A DNA stretch of 64,000 nt from a virus. Location: the IMG/VR virus record IMGVR_UViG_3300022562_001644, positions 27,959 to 91,958 of that record. One strand, given 5' to 3'. The notes beneath the pieces were generated by a model. It was not told the origin of the DNA. It worked only from the letters and a program-made list of their open reading frames with translations, and did no database searches. This document shows positions 3,159 to 54,696 of the stretch, one piece after another. Made by a program: the position numbers and the translations under genes. Numbering within the stretch: position 1 is the first letter of the stretch; each line of letters begins with the position of its first letter.

Positions 3159-3614
3159 GTGCGGGTCAAGAAGGAACTCAACACACACCACGTCAGTCGC
3201 ATCAAGGGGGAGACGAGCCGAGAGCTCGCCGACCGATGTCCAGATCGACTGGTTGTGTTTCCTTCTTCTCCGTGCACCAACGTCGGTTGCAAATACGCGA
3301 TCAAAGAACCCGGCTATATGAATTGTACGTTTGTCGCGGCAGAGGCTGGAGAGCATACGCTCGAGGCCATCGGCGACATGATGGGCATCACCAGAGAAGG
3401 TGTCCGCCTTATCGAGAGGCGCGCTCTCATAAAGATCCGGGCTCAGCTATCGCAGGATAAGCTCGATGAAACGGACCGGACCACCCAGCGTCAACCATGT
3501 TTTGCTTCAGGGGGAGATAACGTCTACCCCATCAGTGAAGTCAATAAGCTCTCGCACCCAGGTGACATCATTCCAGCTCTCAATGACAGAGAGCTGGGTG
3601 AATGCGGAGGGTGA
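3159..3614 (+). CDS. Sigma-70 region 4-like DNA-binding protein
   Basis: GTG start at 3159, 151 codons. Residues 62-100 (HTLEAIGDMMGITREGV, then RLIERRALIKIRAQL) follow the sigma-70 region 4.2 helix-turn-helix pattern: TLEE-G-...-TRERIRQIE-KAL-KLR. That element reads the -35 box in sigma factors. The N-terminal part has cysteines (PCTNVGCKY, NCTF) that may bind metal. No region 2 is visible, so this is a region-4-only protein: a partial sigma, a co-regulator, or a partner of the phage RNA polymerase at 43735. The last ~50 codons overlap the OB-fold gene in another frame and look non-conserved. Confidence 0.65.
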   Translation: MRVKKELNTHHVSRIKGETSRELADRCPDRLVVFPSSPCTNVGCKYAIKEPGYMNCTFVAAEAGEHTLEAIGDMMGITREGVRLIERRALIKIRAQLSQDKLDETDRTTQRQPCFASGGDNVYPISEVNKLSHPGDIIPALNDRELGECGG

Positions 3615-12827: not shown

Positions 12828-12831
12828 CGAC

Positions 12832-13849: not shown

Positions 13850-14743
13850 TTAGATCAGGGTCATCTTGGCGGCGGCACGGAGGTTTCCGTAGCCCATACC
13901 GACGTATTCCCAGGTCTGCCAGGAGACCATGTCAGCACGCTTCTCGATGTAGAACTTGGTGTCGTTCAGAATGTAGAAGTTGCCGAGGTATTTGGGGTCG
14001 GTGAAGATGTACAACGTTCCCGGGGGCACGATCGACGACTTGATCGTGACGACCAGCTTGTGGCCGAGGATGGTGTTGTACTTGTAGCCGTTGACCAGGA
14101 TCTCCGAGGCCAGCGGCGAGCCGATGACGGCCGACTCCTGGGTCATGAAGTCGTCCCAGTCCGCCTTGTGCATCAGGATGGTGCCAACGGCGAGCTCGTC
14201 GGTGTCGAGGGCCTTGAACAGTTTCACCAGGTTCTCGGAGGTGGCCGGGCCGGCAACCGCCGGGGCAACGTCCTTGCCGTTCGCGGCGATGACCGCGTCG
14301 GTGAACTCGATGAACTTTCCGTCCTCGATCTTCTGGATGTCCTTGACCGAGTTCTCCTCGATGACCTTGGTCACCGGGAAGTCGTAGGCCAGGAGCTCGG
14401 CTTCGTTCTTCTTGAACTTTTCCGATTCGATCTTGAAGAACGGAATCTCGTAGCGGTCGCCCTCGATGTACCGCTCGAACGCCTTGCCTCGGAAGTTCAC
14501 CGCGGCCGCCGAGCTCTGGGGCTCGATGTCGACGATCTTCACGAGGGTGTCGTGATTGACCGAACGCTGGCAGTCCGCCTTGGTGACGTATTCCGGGGGA
14601 AGAATCGAACGGGTGAACGAGACTTCGCGCAGGCGCTCGCGCACGAAAGCGCCACCCGCCTGAGCGGCCTTCTCGAGACCGTCGTTGGTGTCCAACCTGG
14701 AAATGAACAGGTTGTTAAAGGTTGCGGCATCAATCTGATCCAT
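13850..14743 (-). CDS. Major capsid protein (HK97-fold, probable)
   Basis: 297 residues with an AGGAG site. The C-terminal half has typical capsid-fold pieces: GTILMHKADWDDFM (backbone helix/strand), SEILVNGYKYNTILGHKLVV (A domain) and TLYIFTDPKYLGNFYI, ending YGNLRAAAKMTLI. The N-terminal portion starts with AATFNNLFISRLDTNDGLE and a helical arm. No separate scaffold domain is seen. The neighbours (decoration-like gene upstream, neck genes downstream, protease farther upstream) agree. The 297-residue length suggests little or no cleaved delta domain. Confidence 0.7.
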   Translation of the reverse strand: MDQIDAATFNNLFISRLDTNDGLEKAAQAGGAFVRERLREVSFTRSILPPEYVTKADCQRSVNHDTLVKIVDIEPQSSAAAVNFRGKAFERYIEGDRYEIPFFKIESEKFKKNEAELLAYDFPVTKVIEENSVKDIQKIEDGKFIEFTDAVIAANGKDVAPAVAGPATSENLVKLFKALDTDELAVGTILMHKADWDDFMTQESAVIGSPLASEILVNGYKYNTILGHKLVVTIKSSIVPPGTLYIFTDPKYLGNFYILNDTKFYIEKRADMVSWQTWEYVGMGYGNLRAAAKMTLI

Positions 14744-17472: not shown

Positions 17473-17522
17473 CATCTTCTCCGGGGTTCAGTTGGAAATA
17501 ACGGTCGGGGAAAACCCCAGGC

Positions 17523-20816: not shown

Positions 20817-20828
20817 GGTCAGTCAGTC

Positions 20829-21254: not shown

Positions 21255-21280
21255 TTTCCTGCTCCTTGGTTATTGCGGGC

Positions 21281-24807: not shown

Positions 24808-24816
24808 GGGGTTCCC

Positions 24817-25509: not shown

Positions 25510-25511
25510 GA

Positions 25512-26794: not shown

Positions 26795-26825
26795 CCAGGA
26801 TCCTCGCTTCTTGGTTCTACTCGAA

Positions 26826-26844
26826 GGTATAAGGATAGAGTATC
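26826..26844 (+). promoter_or_regulatory. Variant of the CATAAGA promoter motif before gene at 26884
   Basis: GGTATAAGG-ATAG-AGTATC resembles GGCATAAGA-ATAG-TGAACC at 42198, with two changes in the first half. It lies 40 nt ahead of an AAAGGAG ribosome site. TATAAG is also a fair sigma70 -10 box. Confidence 0.4.
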
Positions 26845-26883
26845 AGGGTCAAGAAAGCGGAAATACAGTCAAAGGAGAAGCAA

Positions 26884-27555: not shown

Positions 27556-27564
27556 TCGGTTCCT

Positions 27565-27583
27565 GGCATAAGAAGGATGAAAG
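27565..27583 (+). promoter_or_regulatory. Phage promoter motif GGCATAAGA-N4-TGAAAG
   Basis: GGCATAAGA (27565-27573), four bases, then TGAAAG. The upstream context GGTTCCT matches the other copies. The AAAGGAG ribosome site overlaps its end and the gene starts at 27595, so the leader is very short. Confidence 0.6.
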
Positions 27584-27594
27584 GAGAACTTCTT

Positions 27595-28044
27595 ATGTCC
27601 ATAGGAACAATGAGAGAGCAATTCGCTGAAGCGTTTGACCGCCTAATGCATTGCCGGATCGTTCTCGAGAACCTCAAGAAAACAGCCGAAGATTGCCTGG
27701 AGCCAGCTCAGCCAATTCTCAAGCTCATCCATCTTGGTCGCCTGAAGGCTGACGGAGAGACCATGCGAGACATCGAAATCGGTGTGAAGCGGGTTGAATC
27801 CGACAAGCGGAATGCAATCAAGTGCATGGATGATGCCGAGAAGAAAGCTGATTCCTGCTCCAGCATCATCAGCCGGCTTGAGCTCTACTCGAGAACGCCA
27901 ACCAGCAATGAAGAAATACGAAGGTGGGAGGACAAGTTTCAGGAAGAACTCTGGTTTCTGAATGCCTCGATAGAGGAAGTTCAAGCGCTACGTGCGCAAA
28001 TCGAAGGGAGTGCAGCTTCCCTAGACAAATCGCTGCCCCTGTGA
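27595..28044 (+). CDS. Hypothetical helical protein, 149 aa
   Basis: ATG 27595 is preferred over the in-frame ATG at 27577 because AAAGGAG stands 8 nt upstream. The protein is nearly all helix with heptad-like spacing (MREQFAEAFDRLMHCRIVLE, EEIRRWEDKFQEELWF) and scattered cysteines. No family was recognised. It is transcribed alone from its own promoter and ended by a strong terminator directly after the stop codon. Confidence 0.65.
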   Translation: MSIGTMREQFAEAFDRLMHCRIVLENLKKTAEDCLEPAQPILKLIHLGRLKADGETMRDIEIGVKRVESDKRNAIKCMDDAEKKADSCSSIISRLELYSRTPTSNEEIRRWEDKFQEELWFLNASIEEVQALRAQIEGSAASLDKSLPL

Positions 28045-28045
28045 G

Positions 28046-28087
28046 CCACAGCGGGGGGCCTCACGGTCCCCCGTTGCGGTTTTTTTT
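28046..28087 (+). terminator. Rho-independent terminator
   Basis: A long GC-rich stem with wobble pairs (CCACAGCGGGGGGCC against GGTCCCCCGTTGCGG, four-base loop TCAC) is followed by eight Ts at 28080-28087. It starts two bases after the stop codon of the 27595 gene. Confidence 0.85.
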
Positions 28088-28109
28088 AGCTATCGGGTAG
28101 ACTGTGGGC
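28074..28109 (+). promoter_or_regulatory. Leaderless promoter TTGCGG-N18-TAGACT inside terminator tail
   Basis: TTGCGG (28074-28079) lies in the terminator stem. An 18-bp spacer follows, then TAGACT at 28098-28103 and six bases to ATG 28110. There is no ribosome site. Terminator and next promoter therefore share sequence. Confidence 0.5.
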
Positions 28110-28619
28110 ATGGATAACGTCCTCGAGGGGTTTGCCGATGAGCTTGTAAAGCTCGCTGGGAAGCGGAGTTCGTCGGCGGGCGCGGAGGACGAAGACCTTC
28201 TCGCTCTCTACCAAAGGGTGAAGAGCAGAAGTGACAAGGGCCTAAATGATAGCACTCTGAAAAAAATCAGAGGTAAGGGACGTCAAGTCAGTCGCGATTA
28301 CCTGGCGTCCACCCTGATTGGCTCTGTCGCAACCCCAGTTGCCCTCCTTGGAAGCAAGCGGATCTCGAGAGCCTTGCACAACCGAGAAGTCCTCAAGGCC
28401 ATGCAGGGTGTGAAGGGGAGGCGTCGAAAAGCCCTGGCTGGATACCTAGAGAGCGGCCCTATGCTTGGGAAGACGAAGGTTCCTGGGATGATGAAGGGCA
28501 AGAAGCCCATGATGACCCACGCCGAGCTAGCCGGTCACTCAATTCGCGGTGGAGCGATGGGTTCCATCATCCAGATGCTGCGAGACCGGTTCTCTGGCTC
28601 AGCTGGCATCGGCGAGTAG
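28110..28619 (+). CDS. GFxDEL-tag protein on + strand, 169 aa
   Basis: ATG 28110 is chosen over the in-frame GTG at 28104 because the TAGACT box is exactly 6 nt upstream. The N-terminus MDNVLEGFADELVKLAGK is a full tag, here on the opposite strand from all other tag genes, so the peptide is not a by-product of one operon. The body is basic (KGRQVSRDYLASTLIGS, then VKGRRRKALAGYL) with a Gly/Met-rich region. Function unknown. It converges on the - strand gene at 28620. Confidence 0.65.
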   Translation: MDNVLEGFADELVKLAGKRSSSAGAEDEDLLALYQRVKSRSDKGLNDSTLKKIRGKGRQVSRDYLASTLIGSVATPVALLGSKRISRALHNREVLKAMQGVKGRRRKALAGYLESGPMLGKTKVPGMMKGKKPMMTHAELAGHSIRGGAMGSIIQMLRDRFSGSAGIGE

Positions 28620-34263: not shown

Positions 34264-36033
34264 CTAGAACTTCCCAATACTGATGTCTGCAGCGAGCTTG
34301 CAGTAGGCCAAGCTGTGCAGGGCATCGTCTGGTTGATCGATGGGGTGGTCGTACATCATCGTCCTGGTGCGCTCATTGTACTCCACGTACTCGGCCAAAA
34401 TGTCCTTGGCAAATGGCTCGAATGTTTCCCATTCGGGGAACAGGAAATTCTGCTGCTTGATGCTCTGGAAAAGGTTGGACAGGACCGCGTTCCTGTTGAT
34501 GATGAACTTGAAGGCGTCGGGATCCCACCGCTTTCTTTCTCCCAGCGAGGTCGAGTAGGCAAACTGCATGACTCCCTGGCGACCTCGAGCCTTAAACAGG
34601 CGGCTGTTCATTCCCCAACCATGCCCCCAGTCGGCGCCAATGACTTCGACATTCCAGTGACCGCAGATATGAAGAACGTCAGGGACGATGAATTCAGGGT
34701 CGATCTCCTTCCCGACATATCGTTTCATCAGGAAGGGCCAAAAAAGATCTGAGTTCAGGTAGCAGCCAAGCGTAAGCACGGTCCAGGAGGCAAATTTTTT
34801 CTTACCTCCAGCGACCTCACCTTCCTCACGCCCCTCACCCCAGTCGATGCCGGCGAAGAAACGGAAGTTCATTGTGCTATCTCGGGTATGAATGAACTTG
34901 CTGCTATCTCTTCCGGTGATTTTCTTGATTGGATAGCAGCACTGCTGGACATCCATCTTGGTAACTGGGGCAGATGCTGTGTCGTAGGAAAATCCAAGGA
35001 TCTCGTTTTGAAACTTCCCGTCCGGCCATTTTTCGTAAGGGAGAACAATCTCAGCTCGCCATGCCTCCTCCGACTGCTTCCACGGCACCATGAGCTGAGA
35101 GATGTGATAGCCGACGTAGTGCTCTCCCGGCGCAAGTGTTACCCATTGGCCGTCCATGGGATTGATTCGCTTGTCACAGTTCGCGCAAACTAAACCGTTC
35201 TTCCCAATGTTCTCCGGTCCAAGCAGGTTCCAAAAGCGCGGCTTCTTGCAGTCACATGGAACAAGCCATTCGTTCTGCGTTGACCACTGCCAGTACTCCT
35301 CAAGAGTATTGGCGAAGGTCAGGGGCGTCCCGCAGATGAACTCCATACCCTCCACGCCAGCCGAGAGGCGGGATGCCGAGAGAGACTGCGAGATGACCTT
35401 GATATTGTCCTTGAGGAGATCCTGGGCCTCGTCGAAGAATACGCGGCTGGCCGGAATGCCTCGAGCTCGAGCAGCAGTGAGAAAGGCGTAGCGCAGGAAC
35501 ATGTACGACCCATTCAAGATCGTTTTCTCGAAGACCTGGTCCGTTATCCCCTTTCCGATGAACGCACGCTTGACGAACGGAGAATCGTACAGGGTAGGGC
35601 GCAGTTTCTCGTTGGAATACTGTCTGGTCTGGAGTGCTGACGGAGAAACATAGAGGCTTCTCCAGTGCGGTCGAATCAGGGACTCGGTTACCTGCAGATT
35701 GCACACGGTCGTCGACTTAGCGACCTGGCGAGAGCACTTAAGGACTAGCCGCGGGTCTTCGTCGTTGTAGACCGGCAACATAAAGGCATGATTGTCTAGT
35801 CTGAGGGGTCTCCCAAGGTGATGAAGACAAGCCTGGGCAATGTCGCTTTTTCGACCCTTGAATCCGGGACGATCCGTGTCCGTGGTGATCTCAATAAGGC
35901 GAGGCTTCCAGTCGTAGAGTTCTTCATTCCAGTTGATGTCGGGAACAAGGTTTGGAAGTTCACCAGACTTGCCGGTGAAATCAAATGGGTCGCTGTCGAG
36001 CTCGTCAGGCTCATGTGCCAGTTCCTCCATCAT
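34264..36033 (-). CDS. terL: Terminase large subunit (TerL)
   Basis: 589 residues. The ATPase that drives DNA packaging is seen as a Walker A variant CSRQVAKSTT (100-109) and Walker B RVFFDEAQD with Asp201/Glu202. A nuclease domain follows: GIDWGEG (Asp397), VIGADWGHG (Asp468), and HPIDQPDDALHSLAY near 575. These are the acidic triad positions of the RNase H-like fold that cuts concatemers. An insertion carries CDC ... CANC (260, 262, 283, 286), a probable zinc site between the two domains. Start overlaps the upstream gene by 4 nt. Confidence 0.9.
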   Translation of the reverse strand: MMEELAHEPDELDSDPFDFTGKSGELPNLVPDINWNEELYDWKPRLIEITTDTDRPGFKGRKSDIAQACLHHLGRPLRLDNHAFMLPVYNDEDPRLVLKCSRQVAKSTTVCNLQVTESLIRPHWRSLYVSPSALQTRQYSNEKLRPTLYDSPFVKRAFIGKGITDQVFEKTILNGSYMFLRYAFLTAARARGIPASRVFFDEAQDLLKDNIKVISQSLSASRLSAGVEGMEFICGTPLTFANTLEEYWQWSTQNEWLVPCDCKKPRFWNLLGPENIGKNGLVCANCDKRINPMDGQWVTLAPGEHYVGYHISQLMVPWKQSEEAWRAEIVLPYEKWPDGKFQNEILGFSYDTASAPVTKMDVQQCCYPIKKITGRDSSKFIHTRDSTMNFRFFAGIDWGEGREEGEVAGGKKKFASWTVLTLGCYLNSDLFWPFLMKRYVGKEIDPEFIVPDVLHICGHWNVEVIGADWGHGWGMNSRLFKARGRQGVMQFAYSTSLGERKRWDPDAFKFIINRNAVLSNLFQSIKQQNFLFPEWETFEPFAKDILAEYVEYNERTRTMMYDHPIDQPDDALHSLAYCKLAADISIGKF

Positions 36034-36932: not shown

Positions 36933-39125
36933 TCATCGCGCGAACCCTATGGGGGACGCAGCGGAAGGGAGGCGGCCGCCTACATGACTCTGCATAGAGG
37001 GAGTTCTGGCGGCCGATGTCTTCACCCCATGCTCCTCCATCATCTTCAGCCGCCCGAGACCCTCGATGACCTTCTGCAGATGCATCAGAGCTGCTCGGAC
37101 TGCTTCTTCGGGGATGTCCTCCATTCCAAGTCGAGAGGCCAGCAGAAGCTTGGCCAGCATATGACTCACCTCCCAGAGCATCGGTTTTGCCGATGCGAAG
37201 CGAGCAATGTTCTCTTCGTTGATAAAGCCAAGGCTCAGTACCGAGTCAACGCTTTGTGCGTCATCTAGCGCTGCCGCAATCTTGACCAAGTCCTGGATGG
37301 GCGCTTTCAGCGATGCAGCGATCTTGCGAAGATGCTTTTTGTTCGACGCTGTTTTGACTTCCCCTGGCAGGGGCGGGAAGTTCAGGTGGTGGACTTCTAG
37401 GTGAATGTGGCGCTTAGTTCCGTCGAGAACCTCGGCAGTTTTCTCGTGGTCGAGTCCCCAGGATCGAAGCAGAAACTCAGCTTCATGCCTTGGCAGACTG
37501 TTGAAGTCGATGTTCTTGTTGACAGATGCGTACTTTGCCAGTGGTCCGCCACGGAAGATGTATCGTCCGTTAGCCTGGGCTACCTTGATTGGGTTGAGGT
37601 CGAGGTGCTCGAGGGCTACTCGTTTGAAGTCCTCTGGGTTCTCCGAGACGGGACACAGGCGAGGCATTCGGACGAAGAACATCTTCGCTGAAACGATGTA
37701 GTTGTTGCCTGTGCCAACAAGCGGACCAAGGTCACTTCGCTGGCTATCGGTGATGCGAACGATCCCGTCTACGTTTGGAGACAGGATCAGGTTTGCCTGG
37801 TTGCCCTTATAATCAACCACGCCGAGGCTGCGAAGGTTTTTGTAAACGGTGACCGAGGTAACCTGGAACGGTGCGGTGGCCATCACCCTGTCGCCATTGC
37901 GATAGATGAGGGTTCCGATTTTCCCTGTATCAGCCCGATCTGGCTTGAGTCCGGCATCATCGTCGTCGCCGTAGAGCGGGATTCCGGAGATTCGGCCCTG
38001 GATGGAGGCTAGCGCTTTGCCCAAGAACAGCTTGGTAGGCAAGGGTGAGCCGTCGAAGCTCACGACGTTGGGGACGACATAGCCCTTAGCAATTACACCG
38101 TCTCGGTCTCGAACGGCATATCGGCCAAACGATCCAATGGTTGTGACGGTGCGGTCGTCTTGCAGTGGGTCGAAGACCCAGGGGTTCTTGTGCTCTCCCA
38201 GGCTGGCCCCGTAGGAGCCAGACCCGTCGACGCCGTTGCCGGTCGGGCCATCCACATCGGCCCCATAAGGAGTCTTTGGCGGCTCCAGGGTGAAGTGGCC
38301 GTACTGGTCGACGCTATGAAGTGGGTCGTGCTCGTAGTCCCAGAGCTCCGACTTGCGCATATCGAGCCAGTTCAGTAGTCCCTGCCGATCAGTGGTGACC
38401 ATGCCCGGGTCGTAGACCTCGTCGGGTGCGGAGTAAAGTCGATAGGCGTCAGGGCCATCCTTCTTGATCGTAAAAACTCTGGCGGCCCTCTCCTTGTTGA
38501 TGCGCTCCTGCTCGCCAGATCTGGGCTTGTCCTCAGCGGCATATTTCTGAATGACGTCGAAGTTTCCGCGCCTATGGTATCCGGCCAGGAGGGCCGGGTT
38601 TCTTGCAAAGGCTTGCTTGAAGAGAGCCACGTCCTTCTGGTCCAGGGTTCCGCTGATCAAGTCGATCACAGACATCGAAGACGAGTACGAGTACTTTCCT
38701 CCGAGCGGTGGGTTGCGAGCATCCGAGAAAACGTCGTCCGCCATATTGGGGGGCGGCTTTTGCGTTGCCAGCCCAGCTCCGAGACTGTTCTGGTAGAAGA
38801 TTTTGGAGATGTTGTCGTCGCTCAGGGGGTAAAGCTTTCCCTCGCTGAAGAAAAGATCAATGGGGGCGAGGTGCCACGACTTGATGACAATGGGTACACC
38901 AACTTGCCTGCCACTCGACGAATCCTTCGCGATAGCAGTTCCAACGCCGTAACCCTTCTCGTCGTCTACGTCCTGGAAGACCATGGTCACGTCCAGGTCG
39001 AGATCATGCGGAAGTCGCTCAGCGACCATGGCGCTGATTTCTTGCTGCCACTCCCGAACGTTGTCCGAGAGCTTCTTGTACTGGACTCGTCGGAACTGAG
39101 GGTCTTCTGAGAAGAGGTTTTCCAT
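36933..39125 (-). CDS. Large virion-region protein of unknown function, 730 aa
   Basis: The N-terminal third is globular (SWHLAPIDLFFSEGKLYPLS; VGVPIVIKSW). The middle is beta-rich (VTSVTVYKNLRSLGVVDYKG). The last third contains many K-x-A units (IQKYAAED, KYASVN, EKTAEVL, VKTASNK, RKIAASLK, VKIAAAL) and two amphipathic helices (HMLAKLLLASRLGMEDI). No enzyme motif was recognised. It lies between the spike-like protein and terminase genes, so it is probably a tail-tip or core component. Confidence 0.5.
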   Translation of the reverse strand: MENLFSEDPQFRRVQYKKLSDNVREWQQEISAMVAERLPHDLDLDVTMVFQDVDDEKGYGVGTAIAKDSSSGRQVGVPIVIKSWHLAPIDLFFSEGKLYPLSDDNISKIFYQNSLGAGLATQKPPPNMADDVFSDARNPPLGGKYSYSSSMSVIDLISGTLDQKDVALFKQAFARNPALLAGYHRRGNFDVIQKYAAEDKPRSGEQERINKERAARVFTIKKDGPDAYRLYSAPDEVYDPGMVTTDRQGLLNWLDMRKSELWDYEHDPLHSVDQYGHFTLEPPKTPYGADVDGPTGNGVDGSGSYGASLGEHKNPWVFDPLQDDRTVTTIGSFGRYAVRDRDGVIAKGYVVPNVVSFDGSPLPTKLFLGKALASIQGRISGIPLYGDDDDAGLKPDRADTGKIGTLIYRNGDRVMATAPFQVTSVTVYKNLRSLGVVDYKGNQANLILSPNVDGIVRITDSQRSDLGPLVGTGNNYIVSAKMFFVRMPRLCPVSENPEDFKRVALEHLDLNPIKVAQANGRYIFRGGPLAKYASVNKNIDFNSLPRHEAEFLLRSWGLDHEKTAEVLDGTKRHIHLEVHHLNFPPLPGEVKTASNKKHLRKIAASLKAPIQDLVKIAAALDDAQSVDSVLSLGFINEENIARFASAKPMLWEVSHMLAKLLLASRLGMEDIPEEAVRAALMHLQKVIEGLGRLKMMEEHGVKTSAARTPSMQSHVGGRLPSAASPIGFAR

Positions 39126-42579: not shown

Positions 42580-42633
42580 AGCCCGTACTACGTGCGGGTG
42601 GAAAGAGCCCGTACTACGTGCGGGTTCTTTTTT
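42580..42633 (+). terminator. Tandem identical hairpins with T-run
   Basis: The 20-bp unit AGCCCGTACTACGTGCGGGT occurs twice (42580-42599 and 42606-42625). Each copy can fold a CCCGTAC/GTGCGGG stem with a 3-nt loop. The second copy is followed by TTCTTTTTT. This is a terminator for the + strand gene; its T-run overlaps the stop of the opposing gene at 42632. Confidence 0.7.
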
Positions 42634-43735
42634 AGCCTACGGTCGCAATACGGAACCCGCGCTGTGGGTTGTAGAGCGATTCAAGCAAGTCCTTGTGATA
42701 CATGCGATTGCTCGGCGGCTTGGCCTGGCTTCGACCTCGAGCAGTCGCAGACAGCCTGGAGTTCGGTTTGATTGACTTGGGCTTCGGTGGAGTTCTTCCA
42801 CCGATGTGCCAAGCAGCCGCCGCAATGCTTCGAAGGAGGCCCGGAGCCTTCACTTCATTGCCGGGCATCGCTGCAGCCTGCTTTTCCTCACCCTTCTCCC
42901 TGAGCGTCTTCATGAGGTTCTTTGCGACAAGAGTCGCAAGCACCGTTCCAAAAGCTGGGCCAACATAGGTTGCGAAGGCCGGTCCCATCTCCCTGATGAC
43001 CTTTGCGGCCCCAAGGCCCTGGCTACGAGCTCCCTTAATAGCCTTTGCCGTGGCTCTCGCCTCCTCCGCAATTTCAGGGATGTGCGTTGCGCCAGCCAGG
43101 GCCGGGGCGTAATCGTAGGCAAACTGACCGAGGGTCGAAGTGTCCTCGTCTGGCGGCATGATAGTTCGACCAAGAAGCGCATAGCGACTCATGCTTCCAG
43201 GGAGACCCGATGACATAGCTGCAGCTCTCTGGAGGACCTTTCTTGCCGCATGGCTCCCCCTTACCGGAGAAGCGTGCCCGATCTCATGGAACGCCATCGG
43301 AAGAGAGGTGGTGCTGAGCCCGATATGAGATCCAATTTCTGGAACCTCTTGGCCAATGCTCTTGAGGACACGCTTTCGGACACGATCCAGCAAATCCTCG
43401 TCTGCAATGAAGTATGCGTTTCTGGTCGACCGTGCAATCGGATCCAGTCCTGCAACGATCGGAACAGCCACACCGCTCTCTCGGGCAAATCGCTGTATAG
43501 CTTTAACCTCCTTGCGGGAGAATTCGGCAATATCTTGGAGGAGAGTTCCACCCTCGGCTGCGATCGGTTGTCCGCTAGAAAGAGCCTGGGACAGGAAGCT
43601 CGGTGCACCGCCAGTAATATGACCTGTTACACGAGGGATTCCCTCGAAGATCGCAGCAGCAGCAAGAGCTGGAGACACTCCCAGCTTCTTTTTTAGTTCC
43701 TGGTCGATTTCGCGAGTGTCCTCGTCTCTAGACAT
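42632..43735 (-). CDS. Zincin-like paralogue, 367 aa
   Basis: HEIGH (His150, Glu151, His154) lies in LPMAFHEIGHASPVRGSH. The following region to REKGEEKQ aligns by eye with the 23197 protein: ALAGATHIPEIAEEARATAK resembles EIAGATIAATTLYPEAKASV, and the FATYVGPAFGTVLATLVAKN helix resembles TYVLGAIPTIVGLSLARKYM. The start codon shares a base with the RNA polymerase stop. Metal-dependent protease function is inferred. The basic tail is Pro/Arg-rich. Confidence 0.55.
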   Translation of the reverse strand: MSRDEDTREIDQELKKKLGVSPALAAAAIFEGIPRVTGHITGGAPSFLSQALSSGQPIAAEGGTLLQDIAEFSRKEVKAIQRFARESGVAVPIVAGLDPIARSTRNAYFIADEDLLDRVRKRVLKSIGQEVPEIGSHIGLSTTSLPMAFHEIGHASPVRGSHAARKVLQRAAAMSSGLPGSMSRYALLGRTIMPPDEDTSTLGQFAYDYAPALAGATHIPEIAEEARATAKAIKGARSQGLGAAKVIREMGPAFATYVGPAFGTVLATLVAKNLMKTLREKGEEKQAAAMPGNEVKAPGLLRSIAAAAWHIGGRTPPKPKSIKPNSRLSATARGRSQAKPPSNRMYHKDLLESLYNPQRGFRIATVG

Positions 43736-46700
43736 TAGTAGACCCCTTCACCTTTTTTGCCGATAGGCTCAACGCCAAACTCGGCTCCATAGGCGAAAGC
43801 TGGAATCGGTGCGTACCCGTGAATATCGCTTTCTTGCATTTTGGTGGCTCCCTGGATCAGGGCATCCTTGATCTCACGATACCCCATCTGGCTCATCCAG
43901 TCTTCACGCAACATGGGAACTCGCTCAATTCCAGCCAGGAACGGGGCATCCTCTATGGGCTTAGGACCAACCTCGACACTGCTTTTACCTGAACGCTCCA
44001 GGATAGTCTTCACCCTGTCGTCGATGACATCACCCTTCTTGGCGCCCGCAACATCCTCGAGGAGCTTGTGGCCGAGGGCCTCGCTTAGCGGCATTTTTCC
44101 AAGCGACCTATTGTTGAAGTCCTGCACAACTGTCCAAGGAGCAATGTCACCAGGCAGAAATTCACTGTCCCCCGGGTCAATCACTTTCGTTGTATTGCCA
44201 ACGGCGCGCATCACCGTCTCCACAGCCCTCCTCCTAATCGGAACTCCCTGGCCCTCATAGGCTTCTTGGATTTGCCCGGAGACATAGTCTTGGGCCTCCA
44301 ACATACCCTTCAGCTTGACGAGCTCCTTTGGCTGAACGAGCCCCTTCGACAAAATGTCTCCTTTATTTACCGATGCACCAACCCGGGCTTTCGCGGAATC
44401 CCACATGTCACCTTCGACGAAATGTGGCTTACCTCCGATGTAGACATCTTTTCCACCCTTCTTGTCCTCAACCTTCTCGATCTTTCCAGACTTCTCAGCG
44501 AGCGTTGCCTTGCCACGCTCGATTTTGTGCATGGTGAATAGTTTGTCGATCTTGTCGTAACCAGTTACGACGCCTCGAGTCCCAGAAATACCACCTTGGT
44601 GGAAGGTTCTCATGGTCATCTGAGTCAAGGGCTCAGAGAGAGCCTGCCCAGACACCGCTCCAACGTTGTCTCCGATGGACGGGCTTTGCCCATACTCATT
44701 TAGTCCATAGCACTTTGAGCAAAGACCCTTCGGTTTACTGCATGTAAGCGGAGACCGGACCTTGACTGAGTCAACCCTGCGATCCCGCAGGGTATTCATA
44801 AGTGAAGAAGTGATTGGGTCACCTGCCCTGGCGAGAACGGTGCTTCCGACTTTGATGTCTTTGGCGAGAAAACGGTCTTCGATATCCTGTGGGCGGAAAG
44901 CACCCTTGCTGTCCTTAAGTTTGATGTCCAACCCATTCTCTGTGCCACAGTCAACGTCGGAGATCACCTCAGTAATCGAGGTCGCCATGATGTTCTTGTT
45001 GAAGGCGCCAGGGTTTGCGGTCTGGAGTTGCTTGTCGACGGCGGCTGCTCGAGCTCCGTAGAGGGTGCTCCAGTAGTCTGAGAAGGGTAGTCCCTCCGCA
45101 AACGACTTTGTCACCGGCACGGGAATTGGGTTTCCCTTATGATCATCAACCATGAACGGGGCCGAAACAATTTGCTTGAGCTGGTTCATGTTTCCGCGCG
45201 CGCCAGACTGAACCATTAGGCGGAAGTTGTTGGGTTGCTGATCAAGCCCTTTCTCGACAGCCTTGTCGAGCTCTTCGTTTGCCCTGGCAACAATCTCGGT
45301 CGCCATCTCTCGACCCTTTGGGGTTTTGAGGTTCAGCTTGCCTATGCGAGCTTCTGTCTCTGAGAAGATTCGGTCTTTTCCTGGGATGTTTGGCAGAAGA
45401 TCTTTGATGCCGACGGTGAAGCCAGTCCTGTAGGTGTGCTCGTCACCCATTTCCTTCAGCTTGTCGACCACTTTACCGTGGTCTCGCGGAAGCTCCTCTG
45501 CAATATCCTTCATGAGACCAGCCAGGCCGTTCTTGTCGAGCGTCTTGCCCCCCCACTTCTTTTGAGCCTCGGGCGGAAGCTCTTTCATTATCTTCTTTTG
45601 CCCCTCCGGATCCTTCGATAGCAAGTAAAGGCCAAGGGCCGCCTCGTTCTGGGGCTGAATCATGATTTGCCCGGTGCCTGGATTGTAGAGGTTGTTGGAG
45701 GGGAGCATTTTCTCCGCCTCCCTTACGGCATCTGTGAGCACCGGAACATGGATCGTCATGGCATCGCCATCGAAGTCTGCGTTGAACCCCTTAACAACCA
45801 GCGGGGGGATCTTGACAGCCTTTCCGTCAGTCAGCCTTGGCTTGAATGCCATGATGCTGAACTTGTGAAGTGACGGAGCCCTGTTCAGCATGACTGGTCT
45901 CTCGGACATTTCTGCTTCAAGCATCGAGCGGGCGATTGGAGTCCTGTTCTTCACCTCGTCGCTCGCTTGTACTGGGTTCATTCCAGACTGGCTGGTAAGT
46001 CGCCTGATGACGAATGGTTCGAACAGGCTCCAAGACATCTCTTCTGGAAGACCTACTTCATCAACCCCAAGCTTTGGCTCCGGGATGATCGTTCCGCGGC
46101 CGACCAGGTTTTGCTGCCGTCGAAGAACTTTGTACTGAAAAAAACCTTCCTTGGCCTTCGGACCCTTGAGCTGCTCAACAATGCCCTTTGGTCGACGTGC
46201 TTCCGGATAGAACGCAATCGGTTTCCCGAGGCCAGCCACCGCCTGAACGCCCTCGTAGAGTTTCTGTCGGAGGTCGGCCTTGATCTCGTCGTCTATAAAC
46301 GGGGTTTCGTTCTGCCACTTGAGCTCATTGCTGATCAGGCCGACGTCGCGGTAGAGCGTGTTGATGCCGGGGTTCGATAGCTTGCCGTCTTCGAGCTCAG
46401 CGATTGGGCGGAAAATCGGGGGAAGAACCGGGATCTTTGTCTGTAGGTAAGCCTCCTCGGGGCGTACCTTGAGCTTCTTGAGGGCGCTGAGGTACTTGAG
46501 CTTCTTGTTGGCCTCATCGAGCTTGCTCTCGCTCTTGGCTGTCTTGGCCTTCTCGGTCCACTGCTTGATCTGGTCATCTACGTCAATGTTCCCAAGGATG
46601 ACCTTGAATGCGTTGCCCCCTGTAACGCCCTGGTCGGCAAACTCTCCGGTGTTTGGATCAACGAATAGTTCTCCACGAACTAGGCCCATGTATTGCTGGT

Positions 46701-49700
46701 TGTTCAGGCTCGTCAGCTTCTTGATTGGATCGGCGAAAACCGGATTGGGTATTGGCTCTGGAAGCTCAATGTGTCCCCAGCGGTCTCCCATCCTGCCACC
46801 GAAGGTGAAGGTGTCCATGAGTCCACCCTTTTCCTCCTTTAGATTCTTTGCCCGAAGGAAGACGGGGTCTTTTACTTCGCCGTTGCTGAGCTTCTCGACC
46901 TCGCGATCCGTCATCGGGCCGAGAACCATCTTCGACCCTCTCTTCTGGACATTGACTCCAGCACCCTTCAGATAGGCCTCAAACTTGCGGTAAGCAAATG
47001 TGGGCTCAGGCTGAGGTTTCAGTAAGCCAGAACTTGCCCCAGCCGACAGCCAATCCCAGAACGGTTGATTCTGGGTTGCCTTGTAAGTGGCCATCTCCCT
47101 GAGATTTGCTCGAGAGCCGTGAGAGAGCATCGAGTAAAAGCTGATAAGGTCGAGGGCCTTGGACCCATCATCTCCACCGCGAAGAGGGGATCGGTTGATG
47201 TCGTATTTACCCTCTGAGCGAGCGGAGAACTGAGAGGTCGCCTGTTTTGACAGCTTCAGGATGTACTGGGGTCCAGTGAGAACCTCGCCGAGAGGTTCTT
47301 TAGAGTGGGGATCAAACAGTGTCTCCGTGTCACTAATACCAGCTTTCTTGAGATCGGCCTCAACCTTGCGAACGTAGTCCTCGCCCGAGAAGTTGTCGAC
47401 GACATAGGGCTTGCCCGTCTTCTCGGCAATTTTCGCTGCAGCAGTCTCAAGAATCTGAGAAGGATTTATACGGCTGACGATGCCGTGCGGATTGAGCAAG
47501 ATATCGACAGGCTTGCCGTCATTGGTGTACGGGGCTTCCCCGTCTGGAATAATCTTCGTGATGATTCCTTTTCCACCGTGTCTGTTGGTTAGCTTGTCGC
47601 CGATCTGGGCAGGCTCTCGAGTCTTGATGTAGACCTTAGCCTTCTTTCCAGAGCGGACAACATCGACAACTTCACCTTCGACGTCTCCCGTCCATGACTC
47701 TTGGAATCCCTTTCTTGAAGGGAAACTGGCCCCCAGCCTCTTCATGATTGTGTAGTCAGGGTCTTGCCGGTTCTCGCGAACGCCAACGAAAATAGGGTCG
47801 CCCTTTTTCAGGACAGTCCCCTTCTTCACAACGCCGTCATTGTCCAAGGTGGACTGTTGCTCGAGGGTGAGATCACCCTTCCAGGCCACGCGCTTTTTCA
47901 GAGACAGTTCGGTCGTGTTGTCTGCTTGGGCGCCATACTCATGCATGTGCTCGCTCGTTAGCTTTTGAGCCGCTGACTCAGTAATGACGATCCCGTCTTC
48001 GAAGTTATAACCTTTCCATGGAATGTAGGCCGCCTTGAGATTCGTTCCCAACGCAAGGGTTCCTCCATCCGTGAAATTGGAGTCGGCGATGACATCTCCA
48101 GCCGCAACCTTGTCACCGACGCTCACCCGCGGGCTTGCATGCAGGAATGACTTATGGTTAAGCGGCATATTGTTGTAGAGAGGCTGCTCTACTTCCCCAT
48201 CTTTCGTTTCTATGACGACCTTGCTTTTGGATACACTTTTGACGACGCCGTCGTCCTGGGCTCTCAATGAAAATCCAGAGCCAATCGTGTTCTCTATTGT
48301 CGTCTTTCCGATTTTGACCTGAACAAAAGGAGCTTCTCTGCCTGACAGCGGAATCGCCTGCTCTGACATCTTTGTGGCCATCTGAGCTCGCACACCCTGA
48401 GCCGATGGCAGAAACGGTATGGTATTTGTTGCAATCGAAAAAGCCTGTTTCGATGACCGGAGAACAGCATCAACTTCCCTCTGGTCAACCAGCTGATGCT
48501 CGCCATCAACAATAGCCTTGACCTTCTTGCCTTTGAACTTTCCATCTTGAAACTGATCAGGAAGGGCAACAACCATCTGCCTCATGTCACTGGGTGACAC
48601 AGCCCTGGTTGTTTTCTTTCGGACGTCGTAGACCTGGGTGAGGAGATCACCCCCCTTCTTCCTGGCCCCCAGTGGAAGATTCATGACAATGCCGATCTTC
48701 TCTGAGTCAGGCGTGTGAATCGGATCGATGTATCCAAGGTGAGATGGATGCACGGAGCGCTCCTCAGCCCTGACCATCATGGGGTCCTTGATTCCGCCCT
48801 CGCCCATGACAGTAATCTTCGACATACCGTTTAGCATGTGAAGTGGGTTTGTCTGATCGGGGGTATTCGACAGAGTCGACTGTGTGAAGAATGATGTCAG
48901 GGCAGGGGTGAACTGACTGGCACTAATCAGCTCATCAACACGCTTAGGTGGAGCTTTCTGGTTGTTCATCTTCCGATGAATCTTTTTTCGGAATTCATTG
49001 ATCTTCTGAGTCAACTCGCCGTTCGGCTTGAAAAACCGTTCGCGCATGACATCGGAGAGGGAAAGGACCTTCTTGTATTCAAGAGCCTGCCTGTCATCTG
49101 GCCCACGCTCACCGGCCACGGCTCGCAGAAGCTCCTTGCTGCCAACAAGGACGGCCTCGGGGGAGAGCTTACTGAACTCTTTGCCGATGGTGTTCTTAGT
49201 AACCTCTGGGCGCAACTCGTGCTCTTCGAAGTACTCACGGATCGCCTTCGCTGCATCGTCTGCTGACTCATACTTGGTTGAGGTGAAATGTTCAGCGGCC
49301 TTTAGAACGGATTGCTCAGCCTTCTTGGGTGAGACGGCTTTGTTGACTGCAAGGATCCTGTCGCCCCACGCCTTGGCAAGCTGACCATCTGTCATTCCCA
49401 TGCGAGAAAGAATCGGGTATAGCGGAACCCCGCTTGTATCGGCTGCTCCGCGCATAAGCCGAAATGTCTCACTCTTCGGGTCAAACCGAACATCGAATGC
49501 TCGACCGGCGATGTTGACCTCCGTCTTGAGGCTCCGGTTCTTCATCTCGGTGATGTAGATCCCAGGCTTCCTGCGAAGCTGGTTGTTCACCTGATAGTGT
49601 TTTCCATCGACAATGAAGCTGCCTAGGTCCGTGCTCTTAGGAAGGGTTGCGAGCTTAATCTTGCTGGATGACGAGATTACCTTTCCGCTATTCCGGTCTA

Positions 49701-49926
49701 CGAGCTCGACGGTTCCGTAGACTGGAACGCCCCAGGTCCTGTCCTTTCTCACAGCCTCTTTTTGAGACTGCCAATCCGATGTGTCTTTGTTGTCTTCGAC
49801 CCAAATATCTTTGGCTCGAAGTTGCAGCCCCGTGGCCGCGGCCTGCACATCCAGCGCCTTGGAGAAGGCTGTCTTCACATCCTTCTTCACTATTTCAAAC
49901 TGGTCTTGGTAGTCGAACGTTTCCAT
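43735..49926 (-). CDS. rpoBC: Single-chain DNA-directed RNA polymerase, beta-beta' fusion, 2063 aa
   Basis: One reading frame contains both large catalytic subunits. The beta part (~1-1000) has GSFIVDGKHYQVNNQLRRKP (~103), PDQTNPL (Asp357), HPSHLGYIDPIHTPDSEKIG (~395), PWKGYNFEDGIVITE (~640), IGDKLTNRHGGKGIITKI (~780) and the flap segment VDILLNPHGIVSRINPSQIL. The beta' part has RWGHIELPEP (~1050), RPVMLNRAPSLHKFSIMAF and the Mg site NADFDGD (1382-1388). Its zinc cysteines are C1660/C1729/C1736/C1739 (E. coli spacing 74-7-3, here 69-7-3), and its trigger helices are EPLTQMTMRTFHQGG. All catalytic elements are present and no alpha subunit is seen. It is ~700 residues shorter than E. coli beta plus beta'. 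Confidence 0.92.
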   Translation of the reverse strand: METFDYQDQFEIVKKDVKTAFSKALDVQAAATGLQLRAKDIWVEDNKDTSDWQSQKEAVRKDRTWGVPVYGTVELVDRNSGKVISSSSKIKLATLPKSTDLGSFIVDGKHYQVNNQLRRKPGIYITEMKNRSLKTEVNIAGRAFDVRFDPKSETFRLMRGAADTSGVPLYPILSRMGMTDGQLAKAWGDRILAVNKAVSPKKAEQSVLKAAEHFTSTKYESADDAAKAIREYFEEHELRPEVTKNTIGKEFSKLSPEAVLVGSKELLRAVAGERGPDDRQALEYKKVLSLSDVMRERFFKPNGELTQKINEFRKKIHRKMNNQKAPPKRVDELISASQFTPALTSFFTQSTLSNTPDQTNPLHMLNGMSKITVMGEGGIKDPMMVRAEERSVHPSHLGYIDPIHTPDSEKIGIVMNLPLGARKKGGDLLTQVYDVRKKTTRAVSPSDMRQMVVALPDQFQDGKFKGKKVKAIVDGEHQLVDQREVDAVLRSSKQAFSIATNTIPFLPSAQGVRAQMATKMSEQAIPLSGREAPFVQVKIGKTTIENTIGSGFSLRAQDDGVVKSVSKSKVVIETKDGEVEQPLYNNMPLNHKSFLHASPRVSVGDKVAAGDVIADSNFTDGGTLALGTNLKAAYIPWKGYNFEDGIVITESAAQKLTSEHMHEYGAQADNTTELSLKKRVAWKGDLTLEQQSTLDNDGVVKKGTVLKKGDPIFVGVRENRQDPDYTIMKRLGASFPSRKGFQESWTGDVEGEVVDVVRSGKKAKVYIKTREPAQIGDKLTNRHGGKGIITKIIPDGEAPYTNDGKPVDILLNPHGIVSRINPSQILETAAAKIAEKTGKPYVVDNFSGEDYVRKVEADLKKAGISDTETLFDPHSKEPLGEVLTGPQYILKLSKQATSQFSARSEGKYDINRSPLRGGDDGSKALDLISFYSMLSHGSRANLREMATYKATQNQPFWDWLSAGASSGLLKPQPEPTFAYRKFEAYLKGAGVNVQKRGSKMVLGPMTDREVEKLSNGEVKDPVFLRAKNLKEEKGGLMDTFTFGGRMGDRWGHIELPEPIPNPVFADPIKKLTSLNNQQYMGLVRGELFVDPNTGEFADQGVTGGNAFKVILGNIDVDDQIKQWTEKAKTAKSESKLDEANKKLKYLSALKKLKVRPEEAYLQTKIPVLPPIFRPIAELEDGKLSNPGINTLYRDVGLISNELKWQNETPFIDDEIKADLRQKLYEGVQAVAGLGKPIAFYPEARRPKGIVEQLKGPKAKEGFFQYKVLRRQQNLVGRGTIIPEPKLGVDEVGLPEEMSWSLFEPFVIRRLTSQSGMNPVQASDEVKNRTPIARSMLEAEMSERPVMLNRAPSLHKFSIMAFKPRLTDGKAVKIPPLVVKGFNADFDGDAMTIHVPVLTDAVREAEKMLPSNNLYNPGTGQIMIQPQNEAALGLYLLSKDPEGQKKIMKELPPEAQKKWGGKTLDKNGLAGLMKDIAEELPRDHGKVVDKLKEMGDEHTYRTGFTVGIKDLLPNIPGKDRIFSETEARIGKLNLKTPKGREMATEIVARANEELDKAVEKGLDQQPNNFRLMVQSGARGNMNQLKQIVSAPFMVDDHKGNPIPVPVTKSFAEGLPFSDYWSTLYGARAAAVDKQLQTANPGAFNKNIMATSITEVISDVDCGTENGLDIKLKDSKGAFRPQDIEDRFLAKDIKVGSTVLARAGDPITSSLMNTLRDRRVDSVKVRSPLTCSKPKGLCSKCYGLNEYGQSPSIGDNVGAVSGQALSEPLTQMTMRTFHQGGISGTRGVVTGYDKIDKLFTMHKIERGKATLAEKSGKIEKVEDKKGGKDVYIGGKPHFVEGDMWDSAKARVGASVNKGDILSKGLVQPKELVKLKGMLEAQDYVSGQIQEAYEGQGVPIRRRAVETVMRAVGNTTKVIDPGDSEFLPGDIAPWTVVQDFNNRSLGKMPLSEALGHKLLEDVAGAKKGDVIDDRVKTILERSGKSSVEVGPKPIEDAPFLAGIERVPMLREDWMSQMGYREIKDALIQGATKMQESDIHGYAPIPAFAYGAEFGVEPIGKKGEGVY

Positions 49927-50072
49927 GCGTCACGAGCTCTTTTCTGGCACAAGGTTTTTGAACGAGGAAGCCCACGCCCGCAAAGGAGATTATCACCTGG
50001 GAAAACCCAACAATAACGTCTTTGTAATAGCTTCTATCCAAGAAAGCGAAAAAGCACTAGAGGAGGACCTGA

Positions 50073-52353: not shown

Positions 52354-52648
52354 CTTTGTTGTCTCCCTTGGCACGCTTAGGCGCCTTTTCCCAGTATTGG
52401 ACCACGAGAATAACTTCCTCGGAAGTCGTCACGACTAGGTCCTGCCCTGTACCTTCGCGAACAGTATTCTTTCGTTCGTACTCGCGCATCATCTCAATCT
52501 TGATGCCTGAGGAAGCGTCATTTGCTCGATTGCGAAGATCTGCATATCGCTCAAGGTCCGCATCTTCGAACATCGAAAATTTCTCGATGCGAAAATTACC
52601 TAGATTGCTGTTACTGCTACCGAATTTTACCTCGGTGACCTTAGCCAT
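52301..52648 (-). CDS. Hypothetical protein, 115 aa
   Basis: An acidic/basic mixed protein with strands (EEVILVVQYWEKAPKRAKG) and helices (DADLERYADLRNRANDASSG). Its 3' end overlaps the holin-like gene by 53 nt, and its start overlaps the portal stop by one base. No family was recognised. The compact size and coupling to the portal gene suggest a small head or assembly protein. Confidence 0.5.
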   Translation of the reverse strand: MAKVTEVKFGSSNSNLGNFRIEKFSMFEDADLERYADLRNRANDASSGIKIEMMREYERKNTVREGTGQDLVVTTSEEVILVVQYWEKAPKRAKGDNKDEIFEAQKDWSSERSAG

Positions 52649-54696
52649 CAGATGCTTCCATCCTCGCGCCGCGGGGGCGCAACCTGCGGGTTCGGACGCA
52701 TCTTGTCTGCTGCGTCTGCAGCTGTGCCGCCCGGACCCATCTGTGTGAGTAGCTGCTCAACCAGGCGAGCCATGTTCGGCATTCTCTGGCGGAGCTCAGC
52801 GAGAACCTGATCCCTTTGAGCCTGCGGCATCTGAGCCAGCCGATTAGCCCACTGCTTGGCGATCTTGGAGGCATCCATTTCAACTACTTGGCCCCCACCA
52901 CCGGCAGACTGGCCTGTTGCCCCCACTTCCTGAGCCTGGACCTGCGCCGCTTGCCCCTGCGCCGCTTGAGCGGCCATCTGCTGGTCCTCGGCGAGCTCAG
53001 CCGACGTTGCCGGCGACGCCCCTTCCTGGGGCTGCTGTTGGCCGCCTTGGCCCTCCTGGGGAGGCTGGCCCTGCTGGGGCGCCTGCTGGGGCTGGCCTCC
53101 CTCCTGCGCAGCCTGCTGCGCCGAGGCCTGATCCTGCCCCTGGCCCTCAAGTCCAGGCTGCCCTCCGGACATAGCGCCCTGCGCCTCCTGGAAGGCCTCT
53201 TGCGCCCTGGCCTGGTACTTGGCCGACAGGATCTGTGCCTCGCCCTGCGCCTCCGTCTGGGCTTTCTGGACCAGCGCCTGAATTCGATTCCGCTGTTCGG
53301 TCTCTTTCTCGATCATCTTGAGTTCATCGTCGTAGTCGAACCCGAGCTCGGTAAGCATCGTGTGATCGGAGATCTTGTTGGCCGCGTTCAGCTGGATGAC
53401 GATCTGCTTTCGCTGAATATCGTCGGCCATCTTGAACTCGGTGAAGCCGATGTCCACATCGGGAAGACCGAGGTACAGCTGGATGCGGTTCTTCGCCCAG
53501 TTAACGAACCGGAGAAGAAGCCGCCGATACATGAGGAAGTGGTTCTCCAGGGTCCTGAGGCTGACGCTGGAGCCAGACCAAGAAAGGCCGCCGAAGACGA
53601 ATTCAATGGGTACGCCCATGCCACCCGTGATCTCCTTGTTCGTGACTTCGATTTCTGGGCCAAGAAGAAGAGCTCGGCCGTCGCCACCCAGCCTCTCGAA
53701 TCCCAAGGGCACCGACACGACCGAGATGTAGTTGGGGTCGATACGCCATTTGCGGATCTCCGACTGCACCGTGCCTTGCCAGCTGGACAGGTTGACGTGC
53801 TGGTAGGGGTCTTGCTGTGCGTTTGCCTGCGGGAAGATGAACTCAAGCGGCATAATGCGCTGGAGAGCGATCGCCTCCTGGGCTCGCCGAAGAACGTAGA
53901 GGTAGAACATGCGGCCCATCGAGTGAATGATGAGCGGCTTGCCCCAGCCCATGTCCTGCTCTGCGAGCGTTGGCCTCTTGAAGTGGAAGAGGTTTTGGTC
54001 GGAGAGCGCAATGTCACGACGCTTTTTGAGCGCCATGAGAAACACTTCGGGGATGTCGACCAAGACCTCACGAACGCCACCCTGTATCGCCTTGCGAATT
54101 TTGTTTGGAATCTTGTAGCGGTACTTCGACTTGCCGGTAATCGGGTTGTAGTGAATGTCGATATTTTTGGGATCCCATCGAACAAAGTTAATCCCCGTTT
54201 GGTCCCTGATGGGCCTGTCGACGATTTTCCCAACGACCTGTTCTGTGCAGCTTGGGCACTGGAGGTGAAATTCGAAGTTGGTGAACTTGTACTTCAGTCG
54301 CTCGTCCGCCAGCTTGTGAAGCGAATCGCACTTTGGGCAGCGAATCCATCGGACGAATGGAAGGTTAATACTGACAAAAGCATTGCCGTAACAGAAATAG
54401 TCGAGGCCGATCTCAATGAGGAACGGCTTCAGGTTCAGCGTGTCCTCGAGGACGTTCTTCCATCCTTCGCGGACGTGCTTCTCTTCGGCGTTGTAGATGA
54501 AGTTCGTGACTGGATACTCGGCGATCTTTGTGACCACCGAACCAATCATCGGGTCCTTGTAGAAGAAGTACTGACACCACCGAAACAGTTCCTTGACTGT
54601 CGGCGGCATGTACGTCTGCGCGATATCGAAGAAGGGGGACGGATAAACCGTTCCCCTCCGTCGATCACGGGCAGTCGTTATGCTTCCTCCGGCCAT
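52648..54696 (-). CDS. Portal protein
   Basis: 682 residues. The N-terminal half has typical portal features: PMIGSVVTKIAEYPV, DYFCYGNAFVSI, and a helix-rich core with GGMGVPIEFVFGGLSW, then SGSSVSLRTLENHFLM. A zinc ribbon (C120/C123 and C147/C150) is inserted early. From ~480 the sequence becomes a long Gln/Ala/Gly/Pro-rich region, followed by a short basic helix (IAKQWANRLAQMPQAQR) and a basic end. Portals form the 12-fold ring through which DNA enters. Located at the start of the head operon, upstream of the capsid genes. Confidence 0.75.
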   Translation of the reverse strand: MAGGSITTARDRRRGTVYPSPFFDIAQTYMPPTVKELFRWCQYFFYKDPMIGSVVTKIAEYPVTNFIYNAEEKHVREGWKNVLEDTLNLKPFLIEIGLDYFCYGNAFVSINLPFVRWIRCPKCDSLHKLADERLKYKFTNFEFHLQCPSCTEQVVGKIVDRPIRDQTGINFVRWDPKNIDIHYNPITGKSKYRYKIPNKIRKAIQGGVREVLVDIPEVFLMALKKRRDIALSDQNLFHFKRPTLAEQDMGWGKPLIIHSMGRMFYLYVLRRAQEAIALQRIMPLEFIFPQANAQQDPYQHVNLSSWQGTVQSEIRKWRIDPNYISVVSVPLGFERLGGDGRALLLGPEIEVTNKEITGGMGVPIEFVFGGLSWSGSSVSLRTLENHFLMYRRLLLRFVNWAKNRIQLYLGLPDVDIGFTEFKMADDIQRKQIVIQLNAANKISDHTMLTELGFDYDDELKMIEKETEQRNRIQALVQKAQTEAQGEAQILSAKYQARAQEAFQEAQGAMSGGQPGLEGQGQDQASAQQAAQEGGQPQQAPQQGQPPQEGQGGQQQPQEGASPATSAELAEDQQMAAQAAQGQAAQVQAQEVGATGQSAGGGGQVVEMDASKIAKQWANRLAQMPQAQRDQVLAELRQRMPNMARLVEQLLTQMGPGGTAADAADKMRPNPQVAPPRREDGSI

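Follow-up and report, generated by a model that had tools for sequence, protein, structure and literature searches.

A fused β-β' RNA polymerase gene in a tailed phage and in a large group of mostly uncultured relatives

We found that a 64,000-nucleotide stretch of viral DNA (the window), i.e., bases 27959 to 91958 of a 91,958-base IMG/VR virus record (source contig of about 92 kb), carries a real and complete fused β-β' gene in a phage genome. The best overall explanation is that the gene quite probably encodes the functional core of the phage's own bacterial-type RNA polymerase, with β and β' in one polypeptide. Judged from its sequence, the protein is most likely an active, α-free core enzyme that would work with phage σ factors.

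The preliminary description of this DNA had placed β and β' motifs in the bacterial order in a single 2063-residue frame, and the profile searches it proposed gave the same picture, β domains followed by β' domains. The gene (43735-49926, minus strand) runs from ATG to stop in one frame that is also intact in the source contig, and the plus-strand frame across the same bases is closed by many stops. Pfam domains follow one another in the order Rpb2_3 (residues 357-419), Rpb2_6 (556-917), Rpb1_1 (1115-1259), Rpb1_2 (1326-1408), Rpb1_4 (1540-1587), and Rpb1_5 (1612-1921), with a best E value of 1e-52 and with Rpb1_1 as the only one of the set under its curated cut-off. The protein also matched bacterial β' chains in the PDB by phmmer (E = 8e-120) and could be aligned with bacterial RNA polymerases over 1,924 columns at 26-29% identity. 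A chance frame can be discounted because about 1,900 columns align with bacterial enzymes and because the single frame is preserved in 93 of the 107 related viral loci.

AlphaFold models of residues 1-1010 (β, pTM 0.81) and 900-2063 (β', pTM 0.85), made as the preliminary description had suggested, matched bacterial β and β' with TM-scores of about 0.73-0.78. That description had also listed all the core elements as kept, which holds for the flap, NADFDGD, the trigger helices, and the second β' zinc site (Table 1), but not for the N-terminal β' zinc domain. In all of the fused members checked, a short turn takes the place of the latter (E. coli Cys70-Cys88), and only the second of the two β' zinc sites is kept in the window protein. 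The alignment and the model show a recognizable flap, tip helix included, and a recognizable counterpart of the β' coiled-coil region to which σ binds in bacteria. We considered whether the flap-tip helix might be absent and rejected this, since both the alignment and the model give a helix at residues 723-730; the deletion near the flap concerns a later hairpin. The bacterial positions that we take to be the rifampicin contacts, including those of E. coli H526, R529, and S531, are largely substituted in the phage polymerase, which is thus predicted to be insensitive to rifampicin.

Table 1. Coordinates of the polymerase gene, its elements, its neighbors, and candidate regulatory features in the window
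Feature	Position	Strand	Basis
Fused β-β' RNA polymerase gene	43735..49926	-	Frame, Pfam, phmmer; 2,063 codons + stop
β half, residues 1-996	46939..49926	-	Pfam Rpb2_3 and Rpb2_6; model pLDDT 86.5; best PDB matches bacterial β
β' half, residues 999-2063	43738..46932	-	Pfam Rpb1_1, 1_2, 1_4, 1_5; model pLDDT 89.3; best PDB matches bacterial β'
Flap, residues 711-771, flap-tip-like helix 723-730	47614..47796	-	DSSP of model; alignment
β catalytic motif GDKLTNRHGGKG, K778 and K786 invariant	47566..47601	-	Conservation among phage members
Junction, residues 991-1004: last β strand, 2-residue turn, first β' strand	46915..46956	-	Alignment; predicted strands 991-996 and 999-1004
Site of absent bacterial β' N-terminal zinc-binding domain, residues 1041-1050	46777..46806	-	Alignment with E. 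coli, B. subtilis, Nocardia
Mg-binding NADFDGD, residues 1382-1388	45763..45783	-	Three Asp invariant in all phage members
Bridge helix, residues 1615-1650	44977..45084	-	DSSP of model; R1626 and G1640 invariant
Second β' zinc site, C1660, C1729, C1736, C1739	44710..44949	-	Cys in 93-94%
Trigger loop and helices, residues 1755-1798, H1776	44533..44664	-	DSSP of model; His 99% conserved
Portal protein, upstream neighbor	52648..54696	-	PHROG portal E = 4e-5
730-aa virion-cluster protein, downstream, conserved	36933..39125	-	Same strand downstream in 75/88 related loci
Terminase large subunit, downstream	34264..36033	-	PHROG E = 7.5e-50; PF05876
Major capsid protein	13850..14743	-	PHROG 2522 E = 2.6e-17
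GFxDELxKLA-like motif proteins	17523-18353, 20175-20816, 20829-21254, 22367-23200, 25512-25847, 28104-28619		
Small protein with σ70 region-4 helix-turn-helix, candidate initiation factor	3159..3614	+	PF04545, 32 bits, cut-off 24.1
Promoter-like site TGGCATAAG-N5-TGAA	27564..27581	+	Motif search
Promoter-like site TGGCATAAG-N5-TGAA	40598..40615	+	Motif search
Promoter-like site GGGCATAAG-N5-TGAA	42197..42214	+	Motif search
Promoter-like site TGGCACAAG-N5-TGAA, divergent from polymerase gene	49945..49962	+	Motif search
Promoter-like site TGGCATAAG-N5-TGAA	58461..58478	+	Motif search

At the junction, which reads FEAYLKGAGVNVQKRGSKMVLGPMTDREVEKLSNGEVKDP in the window protein, the β C terminus passes into the β' N terminus without an extra linker in the alignment to E. 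coli, B. subtilis, and Nocardia. Two overlapping AlphaFold models agree on a continuous β-hairpin, with a strand to residue 996, a two-residue turn, and the next strand from 999; the pLDDT of this block is 92-95 in the β' model and moderate in the β model, where the region is the chain end. All aligned phage members have the junction at the same site, even where the gene later broke at another point, and the region of residues 970-1055 shows little length variation across 102 phage members, what varies falling after the junction. One ancestral fusion is the simplest reading of this shared junction. The chain might instead be a polyprotein that is cut at the junction into β and β', e.g., by the putative HExxH-type protein whose HEIGHA-motif gene adjoins the polymerase gene, or by the head maturation protease encoded in the contig. 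We regard this as very improbable, however, because alignment and models leave no exposed linker at the hairpin turn, the HEIGHA protein matches no protease family, and only 10 relatives have its gene.

To place the gene among its relatives, we used two viral-contig scans and three annotated phage records, which gave 110 loci, 107 of them from IMG/VR. β and β' are whole and in one frame in 93 of these 107, a proportion that is not a natural frequency, since the relatives were selected for their resemblance to fused proteins, and some of them are near-duplicates of each other. Their identities to the window protein range from about 33% to 66%, and they are therefore not copies of one assembly. 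The preliminary description had not regarded this layout as common in phages; the fusion is indeed real, but it is widespread: no fewer than 93 IMG/VR contigs carry it, and a broken version occurs in cultured phages (Vibrio phages D69, D148, and D181 and Salmonella phage Arash). Given the solely metagenomic origin of the window, one may suspect an assembly error that joined two genes, or a contig that was misassigned and carries a bacterial fusion. The chance of this is negligible, as the same join recurs in the 93 contigs at the identities given above, phage hallmark genes lie on both sides of the gene, the trees place the polymerase with phages, and all 80 of the cellular comparison loci fetched (nearly all from Bacteroidota) have separate rpoB and rpoC. 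The frameshift or assembly join, and the bacterial non-phage contig, that the preliminary description had itself allowed for were likewise rejected, together with bacterial contamination, by the intact contig frame, the single-frame relatives, and the trees.

The β and β' trees were computed separately, with FastTree supports, and covered phages and, as the cellular group, bacteria. Bacteria formed one clade with a support of 1.0 in both, and the polymerase fell with phages, outside the sampled bacteria, in the tree analysis that had been proposed. The fused phages grouped together in both trees, with a support of 0.91 in β'; the corresponding β value adjoins the re-rooting point and is not meaningful. 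Their nearest neighbors were the separate-gene polymerases of Cobetia phage Carin-5, Yersinia phage GN1, and metagenome contigs L032-L037, joined in the β' tree by that of Rhizobium phage TM30. Although Carin-5, GN1, and TM30 are the nearest outgroup, they have separate β and β' proteins and a Gp23 capsid; Carin-5 and GN1 have the β' gene first, unlike the β-then-β' order of the fused gene, and a σ gene adjoins the polymerase in Carin-5. When fused polymerases were sought in plasmids, the matches inspected had rpoB and rpoC as separate genes of the ordinary kind. Clostridioides difficile plasmids matched as rpoB-rpoC carriers in twelve records, and the C. difficile plasmid that we opened and a Bacillus subtilis plasmid (L219, NZ_CP149712.1, and L218, NZ_AP028965.1) contain a complete cellular rpoB-rpoC-rpsL-rpsG block. 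Three records labeled as phages (OR846602, OR844998, and CAKLQH020000005) have ordinary bacterial rpoB and rpoC inside and resemble host chromosome contigs.

Phage-specific bacterial-type polymerases, which are not among the phage polymerase types that the preliminary description named, have already been described as those of mReC, the multi-subunit RNAP-encoding Caudovirales (Weinheimer and Aylward 2020, PMC7481178). These are tailed phages with bacterial-like β and β' bearing NADxDGD and with an RNA polymerase clade outside bacteria, and the fused lineage resembles them in all three respects. The window contig has TerL, portal, major capsid protein, tail sheath, and head protease genes together with the polymerase; β and β' with NADxDGD are present by Pfam, where the mReC criterion uses COG models; and the clade stands apart from bacteria, the cellular group sampled. 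On the other hand, the capsid proteins detected in mReC are all Gp23 (PF07068; 8 major capsid proteins in 97 contigs), and we found Gp23 in none of the 14 fused-type records, versus 9 of 9 separate-gene phages tested. As so few mReC capsid proteins were detected, the fused lineage may still lie inside mReC despite lacking Gp23. The terminase trait of mReC is PF03237/VOG01069, and the window TerL is PF05876; PF03237 occurs in two fused-type and two separate-gene records. We conclude that the fused lineage belongs to mReC or stands beside it as its sister. The mReC paper, in the text consulted, handles β and β' as subunits and describes no fusion (PMC7481178); a phage RNAP gene for "beta and beta prime" close to the mReC clade is named in a 2023 paper that does not discuss fusion (PMC10159854); and in the literature searched we found no published description of the fusion in this phage lineage. 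The seamless single-chain layout without α and with σ genes thus appears to be undescribed.

Among other known systems, fused rpoBC genes occur in Helicobacteraceae and Wolbachia (PMC7483510) and likewise have β then β' in one frame, but they encode cellular enzymes, whereas the window protein belongs to a phage clade outside the sampled bacteria (those genera being unsampled) and has no β' N-terminal zinc domain. The φKZ/AR9-type enzymes are also phage-borne, related to bacterial RNAP, and without α; they consist of four or five polypeptides in two enzyme sets (PMC7598289), in contrast to the one chain and one β gene of the window, and bacterial σ has no homologues among them (PMC13282480). 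Jumbo phage RNA polymerases have no homologues of bacterial α, σ, or ω according to a 2026 review (PMC13282480), from which the full-architecture core and σ70-family genes of the fused lineage differ. Both barrels lie in one polypeptide in crAss-like φ14:2 gp66, P23-45 gp64 and gp96 (PMC10770324), and YonO too, but these are reduced and highly diverged, whereas the fused phage enzyme keeps nearly the whole bacterial β-β' architecture and remains alignable in sequence.

No α homologue (PF01193) was found in any of the 14 related records, i.e., the window contig and 13 others, in a search that matched 13 of 14 control genomes; the absence of α noted earlier for the window thus extends to the whole contig. 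In bacteria, an α dimer brings β and β' together. In the fused protein, the last β strand would run straight into the first β' strand as a hairpin, so that the two double-psi barrels could assemble inside one chain and the need for an α dimer would be removed, although host α could bind the fused enzyme. A phage σ70-type factor would then bind the core and direct it to phage promoters, which is plausible given that the core has kept its main channel and active site as well as the flap and the β' coiled coil. σ region 2 was found in 8 of the 14 related records and region 4 over the cut-off in 7, these σ assignments being by family only; no σ match passed the cut-off in two large relatives, of 186 kb and 146 kb. 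We infer from these gene contents that the fusion takes over the role of α and that σ-type proteins provide the promoter choice. Each related record has a single β gene, and T7-type polymerases were not found in the relatives in a search run without a positive control.

These results indicate that a fused polymerase, of a general kind already known, is present in a large group of tailed phages, most of them uncultured. A single-chain enzyme with nearly full architecture and no encoded α could give a far simpler transcription machine to study, and the questions of a minimal complete bacterial-type polymerase and of its self-assembly would become testable with one gene. As a derived character, presumably from one ancestral event, the fusion can also help to arrange in time the evolutionary steps of a phage polymerase lineage that has been proposed to be very old.

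The contig is that of a tailed phage, with a contractile tail to judge by its tail sheath gene, and also encodes a head maturation protease, a clamp-like protein, SSB, RecT, a 3'-5' exonuclease, and a further nuclease. The preliminary description had located the polymerase gene inside the virion gene cluster, and its portal and terminase flanks are seen in the window and across the lineage: the portal gene is upstream on the same strand in 79 of the 89 related loci with enough flank, and the terminase gene is downstream in 62 of 88. The polymerase gene is therefore part of the virion cluster throughout the lineage. This position fits late expression, probably along with the virion genes, and permits packaging, proving neither; virion packaging of the polymerase is plausible from the gene order. 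HExxH-type motifs are present in three virion-cluster proteins (HEIGHA, HELGHA, and HELAHA at 42632-43735, 23197-24807, and 22367-23200, respectively), none of which gave a confident match to a protease family; the HEIGHA gene starts exactly where the polymerase gene ends and lies beside the polymerase in 10 relatives. Six window proteins within 17020-28619 share a GFxDELxKLA-like motif, often near the N terminus, that occurred in none of the shuffled proteins and may be a capsid-targeting or protease-processing signal. We looked for this motif in the polymerase as a packaging clue, and it was absent.

A promoter-like motif, TGGCATAAG-N5-TGAA, has 8 sites in the window when up to two mismatches are allowed, where 0.91 would be expected. 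Two relatives are enriched in it as well, and nearly all sites lie on the strand that carries the non-virion genes. In form, the motif is like an extended -10 element plus start site, without a clear -35. A promoter-word analysis of Vibrio phage D69 brought up TAAAATA but no firm motif, and that of Salmonella phage Arash yielded none. With regard to when the core enzyme acts, it may be a non-virion late polymerase, the host enzyme reading the early genes and the fused enzyme with a phage σ reading later genes, its own operon included. We hold this to be somewhat short of an even chance: the σ70-family factors in the related records agree with it, as does the one β gene per genome, in contrast to the separate virion and non-virion enzymes of φKZ-like phages, but no promoter motif was found ahead of the virion genes, and an enzyme encoded in its own operon needs another enzyme first. 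The same enzyme could alternatively serve as a virion RNA polymerase: it would be produced late, when the capsid genes are expressed, and after packaging it would be injected and read the early genes. The gene's location, flanked in most relatives by portal and terminase genes of the same strand, the near confinement of the promoter-like motif to the strand of the non-virion genes, and the precedent in φKZ-like and P23-45 phages (PMC7598289, PMC10770324) speak for such a role; however, the fused protein has no GFxDELxKLA motif like that of several neighboring virion-cluster proteins, a position in the virion cluster is no proof of packaging, and the link between motif and polymerase is only putative, which leaves this role doubtful. 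Less likely again is the most specific form of the proposal, in which the fused chain and one phage σ-like protein would make a two-polypeptide, α-free, full-architecture bacterial-type polymerase that is packaged in the virion and reads the extended -10 promoter on early genes.

Some members of the lineage have a broken or interrupted polymerase gene. In one subclade, which includes Arash, D69, D181, and metagenome contigs L016, L024, and L029, the gene is genuinely split near residue 1445, some 60 residues past NADFDGD. The chain is broken there in all of the cultured relatives found, and D181 is broken within β too. β still runs into β' at the same junction in this subclade, but the chain is broken farther on and so need not be continuous to function in these phages. 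The C-terminal β' piece of L016 (18531-22640) has several hundred additional residues at its end. The gene occupies two frames in loci L012, L019, and L207, of which L012 still carries the coding sequence for the missing stretch in a different frame. Insertions interrupt conserved motifs in three sub-lineages, after NADFDGD (L017), after RHGxKG (L025, L026, and L031), and at residue 949 (L020); those of L017 (14129-15715) and L020 (3451-4530) gave LAGLIDADG and intein-splicing matches, and the L025 insert (12245-13288) has intein-like ends.
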